Assembly: GCA_017431685.1 (NCBI GenBank)
Contig: JAFRKO010000051.1
Location: 1 to 61,371, forward strand
DNA: 61,371 nucleotides
Direction of reading: 5' to 3'
Source of the DNA: Mogibacterium sp.
GTDB lineage: Bacteria > Bacillota > Clostridia > Peptostreptococcales > Anaerovoracaceae
Position 1 is the first letter of the stretch. Every line of letters begins with the position of its first letter. Below are positions 15,311 to 21,990 of this stretch, in pieces. The position numbers and the translations under genes were made by a program. The notes under the pieces are model-generated. The model ran no database searches. It was given only the letters and a program-made list of their open reading frames with translations, and had not been told where the DNA came from.

Positions 15311-15762
15311 TGAGAATACTTGGACTTGATGTAGGTAGTAAAACAGTGGGGGTCGCGGTAAGCGACCCTCTTGGCGTTATCGCGACAGGTGTCACTACCA
15401 TAGAAAGAGTAGGTATCAGAAAAGATACCGGTAAAGTCATCGATTTTATCAAAGAGTATGGATGTGATACTGTCGTTATCGGACTTCCTCTTAGCTTAGA
15501 TGGTGAGGATTCTGTTCAGACTCAGAAAGTAAGGGATTTCAGGACTATGCTTGAAAACAAGCTGAGAAGTTCCGGACCGCTTTCCAAAGTGAAGATAGAG
15601 TGGCAGGATGAAAGGTATTCAACAGTCGAAGCGGAAGAAGTCCTTATCGAAGCCAATATGAGCCGGGAAGACAGGAAAAAGATAATCGACCGCCAGGCTG
15701 CTATAGTCATACTTCAGAGATATCTTGACAGGATGCCGAAAGAGGAGAAAACTCATGAATGA
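15310..15762 (+). CDS. ruvX: Holliday junction resolvase-like / pre-16S rRNA nuclease YqgF
   Basis: RNase H-fold nuclease (RuvX/YqgF/YrrK) implicated in 16S rRNA 5' maturation, 150 residues. Family motifs are ILGLDVGSKTVGVAVSDP at the N-terminus, VIGLPLSLDG in the middle, and DERYSTVEAE and DRQAAIVILQRYL at the C-terminus. It is translationally coupled to ireB. Its last eight bases overlap the start of a LysR-type regulator, which is not the usual next gene (a DUF1292 gene is common there). Confidence 0.95.
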   Translation: MRILGLDVGSKTVGVAVSDPLGVIATGVTTIERVGIRKDTGKVIDFIKEYGCDTVVIGLPLSLDGEDSVQTQKVRDFRTMLENKLRSSGPLSKVKIEWQDERYSTVEAEEVLIEANMSREDRKKIIDRQAAIVILQRYLDRMPKEEKTHE

Positions 15763-16654
15763 TCTTCAGATTGATTATTTTATGGCTGTAGCCACAAATC
15801 TAAGCTTTACAAAGACATCCGAGGAACTCTTCGTATCACAGCCTGCAATATCCAGACAGATATCCCAGCTTGAAAAAGAGCTTGGCTGCAAATTGTTCAA
15901 ACGCAACAATCAGGGAACCGAGCTGACAGAAGAGGGGCGTCTTTACTTCGACCTTTTCAGCAAATATAAAGCTGAGTTTATCAACACAAAACTTAAGGCT
16001 GAACGCATCTCCGGTAAAAACAAGGCTGTCATGAGGGTCGGATTTCTGGAAGGCTGGGATCTCTTTAACATTATCCCTCCTATGATGGAAAGATATAAAG
16101 CCGAATTCCCTGACTCCGAAGTAGTGATCAACTGCTGCGGTGTTAAGGAACTCGCTACTGGACTGCTTACAGATACACTGGACTTAGTAGTTACCATGAA
16201 GAACAGCGTAAAACTGTACAATGAATTCGAATGTACTGATGCTGCCAATATAGGTAAGATCCTTATTTATGCATCCAGCCACCCCTTAGCTCATAAGGAT
16301 ATCGGAGAACTTACGCTTAAAGATTTCAGCAATGACCTCTTCATCGCTCCATGGGAAATAGTTGATAAGATGATCATAGACGCCATTTCAAACTACACCA
16401 GACCCTATGGATTCGTTCCAAAGCTGAGATTCGTTAAAAACCATGAATCAACTATTACCTGCGTAAGAAACAATATGGGTGTAACGATAGGAGATGACTG
16501 GGTATGGGCAAAAAATGCCGATGATCTGAAATGGATACCGTTCAAAGCAAAGGATACTATTTCAGTTGCAAGACTGAAGATCAGGGAAAGCGATGATGTG
16601 CTGGCAATGGAGGATATTCTGCTCAGTATTCTGAAAAACCACAAAAGCTCATAA
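15755..16654 (+). CDS. LysR-family transcriptional regulator
   Basis: A 299-residue one-component regulator. The winged helix-turn-helix occupies about 1-60, including LSFTKTSEELFVSQPAISRQ, and the rest is a periplasmic-binding-protein-like effector domain (about 90-295). The start at 15755 is supported by AGAGGAGAA at 15741-15749 and a normal LysR N-terminus MNDLQIDYFMAVA. It overlaps ruvX by eight bases and stands at the head of the reductase/isomerase/propeller genes on the same strand, with a 26-base palindrome 33 bases after its stop. It is therefore the likely regulator of that block. The ligand is unknown; a flavonoid would parallel NodD, but that is inference. Confidence 0.93.
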   Translation: MNDLQIDYFMAVATNLSFTKTSEELFVSQPAISRQISQLEKELGCKLFKRNNQGTELTEEGRLYFDLFSKYKAEFINTKLKAERISGKNKAVMRVGFLEGWDLFNIIPPMMERYKAEFPDSEVVINCCGVKELATGLLTDTLDLVVTMKNSVKLYNEFECTDAANIGKILIYASSHPLAHKDIGELTLKDFSNDLFIAPWEIVDKMIIDAISNYTRPYGFVPKLRFVKNHESTITCVRNNMGVTIGDDWVWAKNADDLKWIPFKAKDTISVARLKIRESDDVLAMEDILLSILKNHKSS

Positions 16655-16686
16655 TGAATGTAAACGCTGAAACATCTGAAAATTCA

Positions 16687-16712
16687 TGTTTATAACCATA
16701 TGGTTATAAACA
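16687..16712. promoter_or_regulatory. 26-base perfect palindrome, candidate operator
   Basis: The left arm TGTTTATAACCAT and the right arm ATGGTTATAAACA are perfect reverse complements with no loop. The site is in the 162-base space between the LysR gene and the membrane-protein gene, 105 bases before the latter's start. No T run follows, so it is not a terminator. Perfect symmetry over 26 bases is typical of a strong dimer-binding site. Confidence 0.75.
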
Positions 16713-16762
16713 AAAACTGTATTCGCAATTATACAAAACAGGTATACGCTTGTAAAATATTT

Positions 16763-16779
16763 AACAAGATATACTTGTT
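16763..16779. promoter_or_regulatory. Second dyad in the same regulatory region
   Basis: AACAAG (16763-16768) and CTTGTT (16774-16779) flank ATATA and are followed by TTTTTAAT. It could be an operator overlapping a promoter or a weak terminator-like stem in the leader; the sequence does not decide. Confidence 0.4.
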
Positions 16780-16816
16780 TTTTAATGACTATCACATTGT
16801 ATGGAGGGGGAAAATC

Positions 16817-17317
16817 ATGCAGAAAAGCGCTAAATTAACCGCAGTATACGCACTTATCATGGACCTGCCGCTGAGCCTGGTCATCACACTCGTTGCACTC
16901 GCATTATCAAATCTTGACGCGCCTGGCAGCCTGAACGGACCTAATTACATCAGAATGGCATGCCTGGCTTATGTTGTTACTTTCTTTGTAAACTTCATCC
17001 ACGCTGAGAGATGGGGATTCGCATTCGCAGCAAAGCATTCCCAGCCTGGAACTCTTAAGTTCGGAATCCTTCTGAACGTTGTAGTTGCAGCTGTATTCTG
17101 TGTCATTCTCGATCTTATTATGACAGCAGTCGGCATGCTCGCAGGCGGAGCTTTCTCATTCGGACCATACATCGCAGCCTGCCTTAAGGGATTCATACCA
17201 TGCTATATCCCGACGCTGATCATTGCTTTCTTCTGGAACAATTTTGCTGACAAGTGGAGCAGAGCGATCTGCAATGAGCCGGCACCACAGATGCCTGGAG
17301 CACCGGATCACAGGTAA
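16817..17317 (+). CDS. Four-helix integral membrane protein of unknown function
   Basis: A 166-residue protein that I do not recognise with confidence. The start at 16817 is set by the strong GGAGGGGG at 16804-16810; the frame is open further upstream but without a site. Hydrophobic helices lie at about 8-31 (AVYALIMDLPLSLVITLVAL), 43-62, 84-112 and 121-146. The C-terminal tail is soluble and ends in a proline-rich PAPQMPGAPDHR. The topology loosely recalls DUF2798-type small membrane proteins. As first gene of the putative flavonoid block it might handle substrate entry or product export, but nothing in the sequence shows transport directly. Confidence 0.75.
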   Translation: MQKSAKLTAVYALIMDLPLSLVITLVALALSNLDAPGSLNGPNYIRMACLAYVVTFFVNFIHAERWGFAFAAKHSQPGTLKFGILLNVVVAAVFCVILDLIMTAVGMLAGGAFSFGPYIAACLKGFIPCYIPTLIIAFFWNNFADKWSRAICNEPAPQMPGAPDHR

Positions 17318-17355
17318 TAAAATCACAAAACCTTTAAAAAGCAACGGTTTAGGGT

Positions 17356-17364
17356 TGCTATAAT
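17356..17364 (+). promoter_or_regulatory. Extended -10 promoter before the reductase gene
   Basis: TGCTATAAT at 17356-17364 is a consensus TGn-extended -10, immediately after a small GCAAC/GTTGC stem (17341-17345 with 17354-17358). No good -35 is present. It would start a transcript about 65 bases upstream of the reductase. Confidence 0.5.
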
Positions 17365-17371
17365 TATAAAG

Positions 17372-17409
17372 CTACAAAGGTGAAACAAACCTTAGATAAT
17401 TGATTGTAG
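17372..17409 (+). promoter_or_regulatory. Structured 5' leader of the reductase gene
   Basis: CTACAA (17372-17377) pairs with TTGTAG (17404-17409), and AAGGT (17377-17381) pairs with ACCTT (17389-17393) inside it. The AGGAGGG ribosome binding site (17422-17428) follows 12 bases later. It could be a stabilising 5' stem or a small regulatory element. Confidence 0.4.
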
Positions 17410-17436
17410 AACACATATTGCAGGAGGGAACACAAT

Positions 17437-18414
17437 ATGAAGATTCTGGGAATTTCTTTCGGAACAAAAAACGGCAACAACGACACAATGTGCAGAGTAG
17501 CACTCGAAGAGTGCCAGAAGCTCGGAGCTGAGATCGAATTCATCCATGCATTCGACTGGGATCTCCAGACATGCACAGGATGCGTAGCATGCTCAAGAGG
17601 CCTTGTAATGGGCAAGGGCATGATCTGCACAAGAAAAGATGATTTTGCAGCTCTCTATGAGAAAATGGTAGAGGCAGACGGTGTATTCATTGTAGATCCT
17701 ATCTATGAATCCGGCGGATCCGGACTTTTCCATATCTGCTGCGACAGAATGGGTCCTGGACATGATACAGGAATGCTCTTCGGACTTAATGAAAAACTGA
17801 TCGAGCAGGGCAAGGAACCTCTGAGTGAGAGATACTTCATGCAGAAGGCAATCTCTTTCCTCGCAATCGGCGGTTCGGACTGGGCTGTCAGATGTGAGAC
17901 TGACCACGCAATGATCGCTATGAGCCCTGGCTGGAAGGTTATCGATAATGATTACTTCTCGTGGTGCAAGGACGTTATCATGCAGGATGACAAGATCGAG
18001 AGAACAAAAGAGATGGCTCGCAACCTCGTTGAGGCAGCTCAGTACATCATCGACAACCATCTCATGATCCCAGGTTCTGAGAAAGTTGACCTCTGGAAGG
18101 GCAAGAAGGGTGCATGCCCGCACTGCCACGGCAACAACTTCTACATCTTCCCTGGCACAACTCAGGCTGAGTGCGAACTCTGCGGACTCCGCGGTGAGCT
18201 CGTTGTTGAGGACGGAGCTATGGTATTCAAGTTTGATCCTGCTACAGAGCATCACGCTCATGATATCCTCTCCGGCAAGGCACTGCACGGACAGGACATC
18301 TTCCAGAATGAAGGCAGACTCATGAACCTCTTTAAGGATCCTGAGTTCAAGGCCCGCAAGGAGCACTATACAAACGTTATTGCTCCTACACCGTCCCCAT
18401 CAAAGGCAAAGTAA
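17437..18414 (+). CDS. Flavodoxin-fold NAD(P)H:FMN ene-reductase with zinc-ribbon-like tail, candidate flavone reductase
   Basis: A 325-residue cytoplasmic flavoprotein. Residues 1 to about 205 fit the NADPH-dependent FMN reductase/flavodoxin fold: ILGISFGTKNGNN (FMN phosphate loop, 3-15), the cysteine-rich TCTGCVACSRG with C46, C49, C52 and a further C64, and DGVFIVDPIYESG (81-93). The tail adds a four-cysteine treble-clef-like module, CPHC (227-230) and CELCG (246-250). It lies 63 bases before a chalcone-isomerase relative. Gut-bacterial flavone reductase (FLR of Flavonifractor plautii, which reduces the C2-C3 double bond of flavones) belongs, as I recall it, to this fold class, so FLR-like activity is the leading hypothesis. 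The flavoprotein family is sure; the substrate is inference. Confidence 0.8.
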   Translation: MKILGISFGTKNGNNDTMCRVALEECQKLGAEIEFIHAFDWDLQTCTGCVACSRGLVMGKGMICTRKDDFAALYEKMVEADGVFIVDPIYESGGSGLFHICCDRMGPGHDTGMLFGLNEKLIEQGKEPLSERYFMQKAISFLAIGGSDWAVRCETDHAMIAMSPGWKVIDNDYFSWCKDVIMQDDKIERTKEMARNLVEAAQYIIDNHLMIPGSEKVDLWKGKKGACPHCHGNNFYIFPGTTQAECELCGLRGELVVEDGAMVFKFDPATEHHAHDILSGKALHGQDIFQNEGRLMNLFKDPEFKARKEHYTNVIAPTPSPSKAK

Positions 18415-18427
18415 GCACGCTAAAAAC

Positions 18428-18449
18428 GGAGCCGCTTTAATGCGGCTCC
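18428..18449 (+). terminator. Intercistronic hairpin between reductase and isomerase
   Basis: GGAGCCGC (18428-18435) pairs perfectly with GCGGCTCC (18442-18449) around TTTAAT. It is followed by ATATTTATAAA, a weak T tract, so partial termination or protection of the upstream mRNA end is more likely than full termination. Confidence 0.6.
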
Positions 18450-18477
18450 ATATTTATAAAGAAAGGAGTTTCTTCTA

Positions 18478-19353
18478 ATGAACAGACCTGAATTTTATCC
18501 TGTAAGAAGCATCATCCTTGTAGATCTCGCTCATGAGGATTACAGGATCAAACTCGAGAACTGGCTTTACAGATATCATGTGCCAGACAGCATTTCGCAG
18601 TTCGGACCTTATGTAAGCAAATATGCTTTCTATCCTGCACTTCCTACACCTCCGGGCGGAGCCAGGTTTGGAACAGTAAGGATGCAGATGACAGAGCATT
18701 ACTGGCTCGCAAACCCTAACGACCTCGGTTTTGCTAAAGACCATCATAAAGTTCTTACAGAGTACTTCCCGACAGATGTTCTCGTATGGCAGAACAACAT
18801 TCCTGATATGGGTCATTCCCACGGCATCGACAAGTCCGAAGAAGTAAACCTTGAAGGAGATGACGCACGTGCCACAAAGGGTGATGAGGCTGCAGGAACA
18901 GTTCCGTTCATCTTCGCTTTCGTACCTGTATGGTGGGAAGAAGACTTCAAAGGCGAAGGACGCACTGTTGAGGACGGTCCTAACTACAGATGGATGTTTA
19001 TGATAAAATATCCGGAGGGAGTAAGTGCTGAGGAAGGTGACAAGTGGCTCAAAGAAGAGTTCATTCCTGCATGGACATCACACGAAGGATGCACGCGCTG
19101 CGTTTCCAGCAAAATTAAGAAAGAAGTAAATGGCTGTGACTTTGACCGCATTGTTGAGATGTGGTTCGAATGCCAGAGTGCATGGTGCGATGCAGCAGCT
19201 GCAGCAGCTGAAAAGTGCGCTAAACCTGCATGGGCTGAGACAGAGGACTTCCCGTACTTCAAGAAGTCTTACGGCATCAGCGGAATCTTCCTGTCAGACT
19301 ACGCCAGAAGCGATAATCTGACCCAGTACCGCGGTTACATCACAATGAGGTAA
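18478..19353 (+). CDS. Bacterial chalcone isomerase (Eubacterium ramulus type)
   Basis: A 291-residue enzyme expected to interconvert flavanones such as naringenin and their chalcones, the C-ring opening step of anaerobic flavonoid breakdown. The match, from memory of the E. ramulus enzyme, is extensive: RxWxYxxHxPDSISQF (the His is residue 34 here), KYAFYPALPTPP, RMQMTEHYWL, DVLVWQ (Gln105), PFIFAFVPVWWE and the final YRGYITMR. The fold is two fused ferredoxin-like (chlorite-dismutase-like) halves, unrelated to plant chalcone isomerase. The E. ramulus catalytic His33 and the active-site Gln both appear conserved. AAAGGAG precedes the start. It lies between the reductase and the propeller gene in the same unit. 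Activity on flavanonols or C-glycosides rather than simple flavanones is possible. Confidence 0.88.
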   Translation: MNRPEFYPVRSIILVDLAHEDYRIKLENWLYRYHVPDSISQFGPYVSKYAFYPALPTPPGGARFGTVRMQMTEHYWLANPNDLGFAKDHHKVLTEYFPTDVLVWQNNIPDMGHSHGIDKSEEVNLEGDDARATKGDEAAGTVPFIFAFVPVWWEEDFKGEGRTVEDGPNYRWMFMIKYPEGVSAEEGDKWLKEEFIPAWTSHEGCTRCVSSKIKKEVNGCDFDRIVEMWFECQSAWCDAAAAAAEKCAKPAWAETEDFPYFKKSYGISGIFLSDYARSDNLTQYRGYITMR

Positions 19354-19377
19354 CTTACCTATAAAAGGAGAAAACCA

Positions 19378-20769
19378 ATGTCAGAAGGCAAATATTTCTA
19401 TTCAAAAGGCGAGGGGAACGACGGCTATATTAAGAACCTCGAAGTTCTCTCGTACTGCGACATGGACGGCACATGCGGAATGTTCCAGATGGCCCTTTAC
19501 AGGACTGAAGCCGGAAGATATCTGCTCTACGGCGCATGCTTCGCAGCAGGCCCTGCCGGAGTAGGCATCATGATAAGCGATGTCACTGATCCGAGGAACC
19601 CTGTATTCATCAAGAAGTGGCTGCCGTTCGATATCGACGAATATCCGACGACTTCCATTCCTAAACTCCAGATCGCTGATGACAAACTGATTTTCGCTCT
19701 GACTTCAGGCTCCGGCCCGAGCGTGCTCGTAGGAGACCGCGCAAAGATGAAGAGCCTGCAGGGTATCATGATCTATGATCTGAAGAATGATCCGGAAAAT
19801 CCTGAGTACCTCGGATACTGGGACTGCGGAGTTCCTTATTCGATGGGTGTACACAGATTCATGTACAACGGCGGCAATTATGTTCATCTGTCATCGGAAG
19901 CAGATGAATTCGAAGGTCTCATTTATAGAATCGTCAGTATTGCCGATCCGGCAAATCCTGTCGAAGTAGGCCGCTGGTGGGCACCTCATCAGTACATTTA
20001 CGGCGTTCCGGGAAGAGAAGTGGATCATTCAGCTCCTCATAATCCGGACTTCATGGATAAAGGCTGGCTGCACGGCCCTCCGTTCGTAGTAGGGGACAAG
20101 GTTTACTGCGGTTACTGCGGAGACGGACTTTATGTTCTGGATATCTCCGATATTCATCATCCTAAGGCTCTGGGCAATCTGAAGTTCATGCCGGCATTCT
20201 CGAGCAGACTTGCAGGAGCAAGAACACATACAGCTCTTCCGCTCGTTGGCAGAGATCTCGTTGTAGTAACAAACGAGGGCGAGAGATTCGGCTTCATAAA
20301 GGACGGAGTTGTTAAACAGGCTCAGGCTATGAACAATCTTCATATGGTCGATGTAAGTGATCCGACAAATCCTGTTCTTATTGCGGAATTTCCTTATCCG
20401 GAAGTTCCTGAGGATTTCCCTGCGCCGAACTTCAATACATACATGCTTGCGGAAGGTTCAAAGGGCGGACCGTTCGGTCCACACAATGTTCATGAGCCTA
20501 TGAGCAATAAACCATGGCTCGAGCAGAGAACAGACGTCGTTTATGACTGCTATTTCGCTGCAGGACTCAGAGTATATGATGTATCCGATCCTTTCTATAT
20601 CAAGGAAAAGGCTTACTTCATACCTCCGAATCCTACAAAGAAGTGCTTCCCGTTCCCTGGACCTATGATGGCAATGACCGAAGACGTAGTTGTAGATGAC
20701 AGAGGAAACATCATTATTGATGCAAACAGCGATGGATTCTACATTCTTCGCAAAACTTACGAGGATTAA
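19378..20769 (+). CDS. Cytoplasmic LVIVD-repeat beta-propeller protein of the flavonoid block
   Basis: A 463-residue protein with at least six LVIVD-type repeats, each ending D(V/I)SDPxNPV: IMISDVTDPRNPVFI (64-78), GIMIYDLKNDPENPEYLG, RIVSIADPANPVEVG, GLYVLDISDIHHPKALG, LHMVDVSDPTNPVLI and GLRVYDVSDPFYI. Such repeats form a beta-propeller. There is no signal peptide, unlike many LVIVD proteins, so it acts in the cytoplasm. Histidines cluster in loops between blades (159, 170, 204, 217, 221, 232, 284, 369, 372), an arrangement recalling metal-centred propellers such as the SBP56/methanethiol oxidase group. AAAGGAG lies upstream, 24 bases after the isomerase. Its step is not known; an enzyme acting on the chalcone or C-ring intermediate, or a scaffold, are the options. 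Confidence 0.82.
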   Translation: MSEGKYFYSKGEGNDGYIKNLEVLSYCDMDGTCGMFQMALYRTEAGRYLLYGACFAAGPAGVGIMISDVTDPRNPVFIKKWLPFDIDEYPTTSIPKLQIADDKLIFALTSGSGPSVLVGDRAKMKSLQGIMIYDLKNDPENPEYLGYWDCGVPYSMGVHRFMYNGGNYVHLSSEADEFEGLIYRIVSIADPANPVEVGRWWAPHQYIYGVPGREVDHSAPHNPDFMDKGWLHGPPFVVGDKVYCGYCGDGLYVLDISDIHHPKALGNLKFMPAFSSRLAGARTHTALPLVGRDLVVVTNEGERFGFIKDGVVKQAQAMNNLHMVDVSDPTNPVLIAEFPYPEVPEDFPAPNFNTYMLAEGSKGGPFGPHNVHEPMSNKPWLEQRTDVVYDCYFAAGLRVYDVSDPFYIKEKAYFIPPNPTKKCFPFPGPMMAMTEDVVVDDRGNIIIDANSDGFYILRKTYED

Positions 20770-20784
20770 TTGCTTATAAGAAAG

Positions 20785-20823
20785 ATACACAGCCTGTTTT
20801 CAGAGACGGGCTGTGTATTTTGT
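20785..20823 (+). terminator. Rho-independent terminator closing the flavonoid block
   Basis: ATACACAGCC (20785-20794) pairs with GGCTGTGTAT (20809-20818), a perfect 10-base stem, followed by TTTTGTTGAATTTTT. Confidence 0.92.
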
Positions 20824-20941: not shown

Positions 20942-21427
20942 ATGAAGAATAAAGAAATCTTAACTTTAGCGCTGCTTATAGCTGTTATGCCGCCTGCATG
21001 GGCTGTACTGAGTCCTTATATGGGCATTTCTGTAGGGCCTATAGCTCTTATATGTGCCGGTATTTATGCAACTAACGGAAACAAGTTCAGAAATGCACAT
21101 AAAATAGCTCTAGGATATCTTGCAGGAGACATATGGGCACTTATAGCTTTCGAAATAATGGCTCATACGCCGTTAAATCCCGATCTTACGCTATTTCTGA
21201 CACTAGCCGTATTCGGATTCATTCTGGTTATCATTTCCGACAGATTCAAAAATATCATCCATATGCCATCATGGCTGACCGGATGGGCAATAGGTATGCT
21301 GACAATGAACCTGGATACAACAACTCCTGTCCTCAGTCTGACAGTTCAGATCGGGGTAGCCATGCTTGCAGGAGTTTATTACGTCGGAGCATTGCTCGAT
21401 AAAGTACACAGGATGCTGAACAGATGA
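20942..21427 (+). CDS. DUF1097-like small integral membrane protein
   Basis: A 161-residue protein made of about five hydrophobic helices (about 5-25, 30-45, 54-75, 80-100, 106-150). The pattern of short helices with conserved Trp, Pro and Gly (PPAWAVLSPYMGI, LGYLAGDIWAL, WLTGWAIGM) resembles the DUF1097/YcdZ inner-membrane family, whose function is not established. GAAGG lies about six bases upstream. The stop overlaps the ATG of the next gene (ATGA), so the two are translationally coupled and may work together at the membrane. Confidence 0.65.
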   Translation: MKNKEILTLALLIAVMPPAWAVLSPYMGISVGPIALICAGIYATNGNKFRNAHKIALGYLAGDIWALIAFEIMAHTPLNPDLTLFLTLAVFGFILVIISDRFKNIIHMPSWLTGWAIGMLTMNLDTTTPVLSLTVQIGVAMLAGVYYVGALLDKVHRMLNR

Positions 21428-21990
21428 ACTCATTCAGAAAACGATTCAAAGCGAAAACCTATAATACAGCTCTTGTTTTCATCATTGTGATTATGCTGCT
21501 TATAAATGCCAACCTGACAGTATTTATTGGCCGGTCTCATTTTGATGCTATTAAGGCTGAAATACTCCGTTTTACTTCTTTGAAATCGCTTACAACAGCA
21601 TTTGCCGATCATACGACAAAGTTTTTCACTGAAGATGTTGCCGATTTTGCCGAAAATGCCATCACATATTTCAGGGATCACATTTGGGTAGGTCCAAGAT
21701 TGACTAAGGGCAGGGGAACTATACAGGGACCTTCAGGCAAAGAGACTTATTATAATCTGAATATGAGTGGTGTGGTAAGCATAATGCAGAGAATGGGATA
21801 CGATTATGAATACTGGGTCAGAGATGACGGTGTAAAAATGTATGGCAATTATGTCATGGTTGCAGCAAATCTTAACTTAAGGCCAAGGGGTTCACTCGTA
21901 CAGACGTCACTGGGAATGGGTATGGTATGTGATACCGGTACATTTGCTAAAAGGAATCCTACACAGATTGATATAGCAACAGCCTGGTAA
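21424..21990 (+). CDS. Membrane-anchored extracellular protein with C-terminal 3D-like domain
   Basis: A 188-residue protein with an N-terminal membrane anchor (about 12-34, YNTALVFIIVIMLLINANLT). An exported region ends in PRGSLVQTSLGMGMVCDTG and then IDIATAW (last residues), matching the end of the 3D (three-Asp) domain. In other wall proteins that domain is a double-psi barrel related to lytic transglycosylases (RpfB, YabE, YuiC). A wall-related role is therefore possible, but only the last third fits; the middle is not recognised. It overlaps the DUF1097-like gene by four bases. Confidence 0.68.
   Translation: MNSFRKRFKAKTYNTALVFIIVIMLLINANLTVFIGRSHFDAIKAEILRFTSLKSLTTAFADHTTKFFTEDVADFAENAITYFRDHIWVGPRLTKGRGTIQGPSGKETYYNLNMSGVVSIMQRMGYDYEYWVRDDGVKMYGNYVMVAANLNLRPRGSLVQTSLGMGMVCDTGTFAKRNPTQIDIATAW

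Follow-up and report, generated by a model that had tools for sequence, protein, structure and literature searches.

A 61,371-nucleotide stretch of DNA from Mogibacterium sp. (contig JAFRKO010000051.1; hereafter the window) carries a gene cluster that, by homology and context, very probably serves flavonoid catabolism. In this cluster, a flavone reductase (FLR) homologue and a chalcone isomerase (CHI) are accompanied by a beta-propeller protein of the LVIVD family. FLR beside CHI is already known, and the partnership with LVIVD is the new part of the locus. The best explanation of the cluster is a LysR-controlled flavonol-degradation operon with the full route proposed below, to which we give about an even chance. 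LVIVD probably acts on a product of CHI. Rather tentatively, as a reading somewhat more apt to fail than to hold, we propose that its four-histidine propeller is the auronol-cleaving enzyme, a new class of C-C hydrolase unrelated to phloretin hydrolase, in a redox-neutral, ATP-earning quercetin pathway via dihydroxyphenylpyruvate.

Homologues of FLR and CHI

The FLR homologue (17437-18414, + strand) belongs to the FMN-reductase family (Pfam FMN_red). Flavonifractor plautii FLR (7d38) was its only match in the PDB at an E-value of 0.001 (phmmer 6.7e-77), and residues 1-318 align to residues 1-305 of the 310 in 7d38, including a C-terminal extension that is absent from WrbA. The residues whose change hurts F. 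plautii FLR most, G106, W149, H271 and I275 (PMC7862272), are retained as G106, W149, H284 and I288. Five other contact residues of the F. plautii enzyme, some of them FMN contacts, are changed: M10, S14, W72, K92 and K282 are replaced by T, N, A, S and L. In the published FLR work, 11 further homologues all converted apigenin. Homology bears out the assignment to gut-bacterial flavone reductases that a model reading of the letters alone (hereafter the sequence-only reading) had made, and it supports well the view that the enzyme would reduce the C2-C3 double bond of flavones or flavonols. Since the published FLR cannot take electrons directly from NAD(P)H, its natural donor being left open (PMC7862272), an assay with NADH or NADPH could be falsely negative without a flavin reductase. 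A CPHC...CELC motif in the C-terminal part of the protein (18098-18210) could bind zinc or iron and join in electron delivery; F. plautii FLR has a similar motif.

The CHI gene (18478-19353, +; Pfam Chalcone_N, 164.8 bits) closely follows E. ramulus CHI (4d06; phmmer 9.6e-92), the resemblance already seen in the sequence-only reading, and residues 5-291 align to 5-283 of that enzyme. Catalytic His33 and Asp36 and the site residue His73 of the E. ramulus enzyme, which have been described for bacterial CHI (PMC9694015), are retained at positions 34, 37 and 74, the literature numbering being one lower. The mobile-lid region (residues 106-130) is present, but with gaps in the alignment. By this homology, it is well supported that CHI would open the C ring. 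The E. ramulus structures (4d06, 3zph) thus share full-length homology and catalytic residues with the window protein and differ in host. In one sub-clade of relatives (L037, L038, L068, L069 and L070), CHI is merely 48% identical to that of the window, with FLR and LVIVD at 77-80%; CHI seems to have been replaced there by a foreign version.

The clustering of FLR with CHI is not itself novel. It has been published for F. plautii (A4U99_05915/05920; PMC7862272), and FLR was originally found through genes associated with CHI. Both key genes are shared with the window. Unlike the F. plautii neighbourhood, the unit described here usually adds a LysR gene, two membrane proteins and LVIVD, the last of which is absent from the main text of PMC7862272, and no phloretin hydrolase was found in the genus.

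The LVIVD propeller

The LVIVD gene (19378-20769, +) matches PF08309 with a total of 35.8 bits against a cut-off of 20.2, no single repeat passing alone. Its AlphaFold model is a propeller (pTM 0.84), and the best Foldseek match of the model is the Sphingobium TCM1 phosphotriesterase 5hrm, a metal-dependent hydrolase with a seven-bladed propeller and a binuclear metal centre according to a reference title in PMC11656708. The two share the propeller fold and differ in substrate class. His159, His232, His284, His369, Glu300 and Asp436 of LVIVD are invariant in all 12 aligned sequences, and the dN/dS values of 0.015-0.078 against five relatives show purifying selection. From the model and these residues, we consider LVIVD a candidate metal-dependent auronol/alpha-diketone C-C hydrolase, with a chance just under even. 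A second LVIVD subfamily (~372 aa) with the same four histidines occurs in L132, L133 and L134, in genomes without CHI, where its neighbours look by eye like FAD-protein, aldehyde-ferredoxin-oxidoreductase-like or carboxylate-transport-like genes.

The sequence-only reading had named no described role for LVIVD in flavonoid breakdown. This holds for the literature searched: among the papers listed, none joined chalcone isomerase with LVIVD, and flavonoids and LVIVD came together only in a paper on cardamom in rats. In the locus itself, LVIVD is now a constant partner and a candidate enzyme.

FLR and CHI recur with LVIVD

A scan of an 84,980-species collection with two strict LVIVD motifs, which reach close relatives only, yielded 34 loci. 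By our reading, 31 of them come from the genus or near it (identity at least 78%) and three lie clearly outside, in Baileyella intestinalis, Aminicella lysinilytica and a metagenome-assembled genome (MAG) of the Enterococcaceae. Because a simple gene caller missed some genes in crowded frames (LVIVD in L060; PhyS, discussed below, in L118, where it was placed by a protein search), genes were counted by tblastn, with a match having to cover more than 40% of the query. FLR and CHI were present in 34/34 loci found by LVIVD motifs alone. The membrane protein and a DUF1097 protein were each present in 27, and a LysR match in 26, 24 of them at 45% identity or above and two (L073 and L075) at 22-25%. 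The five genes grouped by the sequence-only reading, whose co-occurrence elsewhere had been set as a check, thus do recur together.

CHI was found in 25 of 36 genomes of the genus. LVIVD is present in all 25 of these and in two of the 11 CHI-negative genomes, in both of which a contig edge cuts the side where CHI would lie. In a 398-genome sample of the phylum, LVIVD exceeds 700 bits in G000, G633 and G715, exactly the genomes with CHI, and four others gave only distant matches of at most 178.4 bits. Without the window's own genome, an exact match of two among 397 has a chance of about 1.3e-5 (our own arithmetic, uncorrected for kinship). In a 291-genome sample of the class, LVIVD was found in G000 and G179, and CHI in G000, G179, G219 and G281. 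With the genus taken as one, there are ten CHI lineages: the genus, Baileyella, Aminicella, the Enterococcaceae MAG, G179, G633, G715, G044, G219 and G281. Seven have LVIVD, four have a strong match to a short protein resembling phloretin hydrolase, one has both and none has neither. The nearest named records are MAGs filed under Clostridiales bacterium or Mogibacterium sp., and the titles of many point to goat or sheep gut; RUG record names we take to denote rumen genomes. The carriers are uncultured gut bacteria, mostly known from ruminants, with a conserved flavonoid-breakdown gene set.

Phloretin hydrolase and PhyS-like proteins

Phloretin hydrolase (PF18089) was found in none of the 36 genus genomes, the window's own included. 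Three CHI lineages without LVIVD, G044, G219 and G281, have instead a short PhyS-like (DAPG/phloretin-hydrolase-like) protein of ~206 aa (L021:4068-4688, L094:5747-6367 and L095:8302-8979, respectively), as does G055 (L119:8937-9557), which has phloretin hydrolase as well and no CHI. The G044 protein (206 aa) scores 22.6 bits against a Pfam cut-off of 22.7. Since this protein, which a protein search found, was not reported by the PF18089 search, the count of 0/36 is stronger evidence against true phloretin hydrolases than against diverged relatives. A search of the PDB with a PhyS-like protein gave nothing better than 0.58, and at E 0.001 no PhyS-like protein was found in G179, G633, G715, Baileyella or the Enterococcaceae MAG. 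We consider this short protein a second candidate auronol cutter. A strict mutual exclusion of LVIVD and PhyS is ruled out by Aminicella, which carries both.

Linked genes in other lineages

A 2-oxoacid:ferredoxin oxidoreductase together with Ptb and Buk (hereafter the trio) lies near CHI or FLR in five of the ten lineages: G044, G219, G179, G633 and the Enterococcaceae MAG. The gene order is FLR-CHI-LVIVD-membrane-IorA-IorB-Ptb-Buk-transporter in G633, and LVIVD-CHI-FLR-DUF1097-regulator-Ptb-ATPase-KorA-KorB-Buk in G179, where the third KOR subunit was not identified. The Enterococcaceae MAG shows FLR-membrane-CHI-ATPase-ferredoxin-three oxidoreductase subunits-Ptb-Buk-LVIVD-transporter, and is the one among the 34 loci with Ptb/Buk near LVIVD. 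G044 and G219 lack LVIVD and have the PhyS-like protein with Ptb-IorA-IorB-Buk. Both also carry, within about 20 kb, genes for an SDR, a dehydrogenase, a cyclase and a cleavage enzyme, which by family type correspond to the four kinds that make up the phloroglucinol pathway (PMC10470551). G281 shows FLR-CHI-PhyS and then the contig end; the contigs of G281 and G715 end too soon to show the trio. IOR and Buk of G044 and G633 score above the NCBIfam cut-offs and their Ptb below. The trio of Aminicella lies elsewhere in its genome, with IorA just under the cut-off (630.7 vs 650.9). The window's genome encodes an IOR (703 bits) on contig C59 and a VOR/KOR-type set on C13, both away from the operon.

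In C. scatologenes, homologues of the trio have been shown biochemically to turn hydroxyphenylpyruvate into hydroxyphenylacetate, yielding ATP and reduced ferredoxin (PMC13285125). That Hpd pathway (HpdDEFG, HpdJ, HpdK) has the same type of trio as lies near CHI/FLR in the five lineages; it is described for tyrosine, and no word with flavon- occurs in the main text of the paper. A wetland study reports expression of IOR, which could make phenylacetates from phenylpyruvates; the passages considered do not tie it to CHI products (PMC8084988). The linked genes of the other lineages point to a flavonol-auronol-arylpyruvate branch, not to the flavone-chalcone-dihydrochalcone one. As to the later steps, which the sequence-only reading had placed elsewhere or taken to be different, the linked genes and the count of 0/36 for phloretin hydrolase in the genus favour the second choice: the classical step may have been replaced, and not simply be encoded elsewhere.

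Upstream of LVIVD-CHI-FLR in G179 (L084:13861-17812), there are genes for 4-hydroxyphenylacetate decarboxylase (HpdBCA), all three above the NCBIfam cut-offs. This decarboxylase might connect kaempferol with p-cresol, or its role might be confined to tyrosine.

Proposed route

Quercetin-type flavonols are common plant polyphenols, which some gut bacteria convert to 3,4-dihydroxyphenylacetate. Catenibacillus decagia converts quercetin, taxifolin and alphitonin to dihydroxyphenylacetate, with dihydroxyphenylpyruvate as the hypothetical product of alphitonin cleavage (PMC11170127), and the alphitonin-cleaving enzyme has been called unknown (PMC12203004). E. ramulus, like C. decagia, is reported to break down quercetin by way of alphitonin. 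In the proposed route, FLR would spend two electrons to reduce a flavonol such as quercetin to the flavanonol (here taxifolin), or to make a flavanone from a flavone. CHI would then turn the flavanonol into a ring-contracted auronol (alphitonin), as it is known to do. An auronol has an open alpha-diketone form. LVIVD may hydrolyse this form between the A ring and the carbonyl, yielding phloroglucinol and an arylpyruvate. By analogy with the linked genes of other lineages, the oxidoreductase, which would be encoded off-locus in this host, would convert the arylpyruvate to arylacetyl-CoA and reduced ferredoxin, and Ptb and Buk would convert the arylacetyl-CoA to arylacetate with a gain of one ATP. 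On this electron balance, the reduced ferredoxin could offset the two electrons spent by FLR. Uptake or export may fall to the membrane proteins. Two candidates, LVIVD and the short phloretin-hydrolase-like protein, are thereby named for the alphitonin-splitting step. A candidate module leading from arylpyruvate to arylacetate, which would yield ATP and ferredoxin, comes with them and suggests an electron donor for FLR, the point left open by its discoverers.

The flr-fcr-phy operon of C. butyricum (PMC11868195) offers a comparison. A flavone reductase starts the cluster there as here; the C. butyricum operon then uses Fcr and Phy without CHI, whereas the cluster in the window contains CHI and LVIVD and neither Fcr nor Phy.

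Alternative roles of LVIVD

Several observations weigh against the proposed route with LVIVD as the auronol-cleaving enzyme. The resemblance to 5hrm lies in the fold, and sequence supports it only weakly (profile E 7.5e-6). WD40 proteins score as high, so that the fold by itself is unspecific; a PDB sequence search with LVIVD alone gave nothing better than E 0.057. The histidines do not determine the substrate, given that LVIVD proteins of the other subfamily carry the same four in genomes without CHI. In Aminicella, LVIVD stands with FLR-CHI, and a 48% PhyS-like protein lies elsewhere beside IOR-Ptb-Buk. In the genus, the failure of the PF18089 search to report the G044 protein tempers the negative result for phloretin hydrolase, and 11 of the 36 genomes (not the window's) have a distant PhyS-like protein; in the one genome mapped, its contig is not that of the operon. 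Flanking sequence of up to 10 kb contained no trio in the genus or in Baileyella.

Some of these observations would be accommodated if LVIVD helps CHI without cutting the skeleton, by inverting a stereocentre or opening the auronol to the alpha-diketone, and another enzyme cuts. The retention of both LVIVD and a PhyS-like protein in Aminicella and the trio clusters without LVIVD in G044 and G219 fit such a helper, and stereochemistry matters in the pathway (PMC11868195). However, another cutter would then be needed in G179, G633, G715, Baileyella and the Enterococcaceae MAG, where the search at E 0.001 gave no PhyS-like protein, and we regard the helper role as unlikely. Alternatively, in a coupling like the Stickland reaction, the trio would oxidise arylpyruvates from amino acids and pass the electrons to FLR; flavonoids would be a sink, stopping at the chalcone or auronol, and LVIVD would have a side role. 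The proven trio of C. scatologenes does serve tyrosine beside HpdBCA (PMC13285125), HpdBCA is also near the G179 cluster, and the lack of a known natural electron donor for FLR (PMC7862272) leaves room for such a source. However, the phloroglucinol-type genes within about 20 kb in G044 and G219 suggest release and use of the A ring, and this reading gives no reason for the constant partner, be it LVIVD or PhyS-like; we consider the coupling quite improbable.

We give the smallest chance, a very slight one, to the ordinary reductive route, in which the chalcone would be reduced by an Fcr-type enzyme encoded elsewhere and split by an unrecognised phloretin hydrolase, with LVIVD as a scaffold. 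Five OYE-family matches occur in the window's genome, and the open frames of two, at 691 and 705 aa, are of a size that could fit Fcr. However, none of the five is on the window's contig (C16), phloretin hydrolase is found in 0/36 genus genomes, and the invariant histidines suggest that LVIVD is an enzyme. The cleavage of the auronol by LVIVD remains the reading that we put forward, at the tentative level given above. Contig C49 of G000 (L086) carries two ~937-aa OYE-family genes in opposite directions, with SDR-like genes beside them by eye; these are possible ene-reductases.

Regulation by LysR

The LysR gene (15755-16654, +), whose ATG overlaps the 3' end of ruvX, encodes the presumed regulator of the operon (Pfam HTH_1, 75.8 bits; LysR_substrate, 39.5 bits). 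A perfect 26-bp palindrome at 16687-16712, TGTTTATAACCATATGGTTATAAACA, with the core ATAAC-N6-GTTAT and no assigned strand, confirms the operator candidate of the sequence-only reading and is the probable LysR operator. The core occurs once in the window, against 0.07 expected, and in 21 of 23 distinct intergenic regions between the LysR and membrane-protein genes of the window and its relatives; in the two regions counted as misses (L027 and L033), the core site spans the LysR stop codon. Further core sites lie between the PhyS and LysR genes of G219 and ahead of FLR in G281; in G715, the core stands ahead of LVIVD and also upstream of DUF1097-CHI. Because of these sites, both candidate cutters, LVIVD and the PhyS-like protein, are tied to the same kind of regulation. 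The clusters of the Enterococcaceae MAG, Aminicella, G179 and G633 (L073, L075, L084 and L099) showed no such site, and some core sites of other loci fall inside genes (e.g. in IorA in L021). We propose no wider regulon in the host genome, since ATAAC-N6-GTTAT occurs at eight places against six for a reversed control pattern, near chance; the full palindrome occurs there at the operon site only.

Limits of the operon

The unit sits downstream of alaS-ireB-ruvX, and the rest of the window looks mostly housekeeping, as judged by eye from protein starts. Gene calls confirm all five consecutive + strand genes described by the sequence-only reading, four of them with Pfam matches, and the five-gene core stands. 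Its boundary was slightly short: DUF1097 lies between CHI and LVIVD in 7 of the 34 related loci, which rules out a unit ending with the five genes and makes DUF1097 part of it. In the window, the DUF1097 membrane protein gene (20942-21427, +; PF06496, 65.1 bits) follows LVIVD, and DUF1097 also lies beside FLR in G179. The next gene (21424-21990, +), which overlaps the end of DUF1097, encodes a 188-aa protein without a Pfam family. It follows DUF1097 in some relatives and is apart or missing in others, and its membership is doubtful.

The second gene of the core (16817-17317, +) encodes a 166-aa membrane protein, for which we chose the ATG after GGAGGGGG as the start. It has no Pfam family at E 0.001 and a best weak match of E 0.088; in the Enterococcaceae MAG, the small protein encoded between FLR and CHI shares 25% identity with it. 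The protein is a possible uptake or membrane partner.

The terminator that was said to close the unit is a hairpin after LVIVD (20782-20821, +) with an 18-pair stem and a T-rich tail. The structure is there, and its evidential weight is low: because the scan gave six terminator-like sites against 4.8 in shuffled sequences, the hairpin is weak evidence. The promoter scan was uninformative (six sites against 10.7 in shuffles). Between FLR and CHI, a strong, G+C-rich hairpin (18428-18449, +; GGAGCCGC-TTTAAT-GCGGCTCC) is a possible, putative processing or attenuation site. In L042-L075, the versions of FLR, LVIVD and the membrane-protein gene fall into classes of high and low identity in differing combinations, as if they had been exchanged piecewise by recombination.

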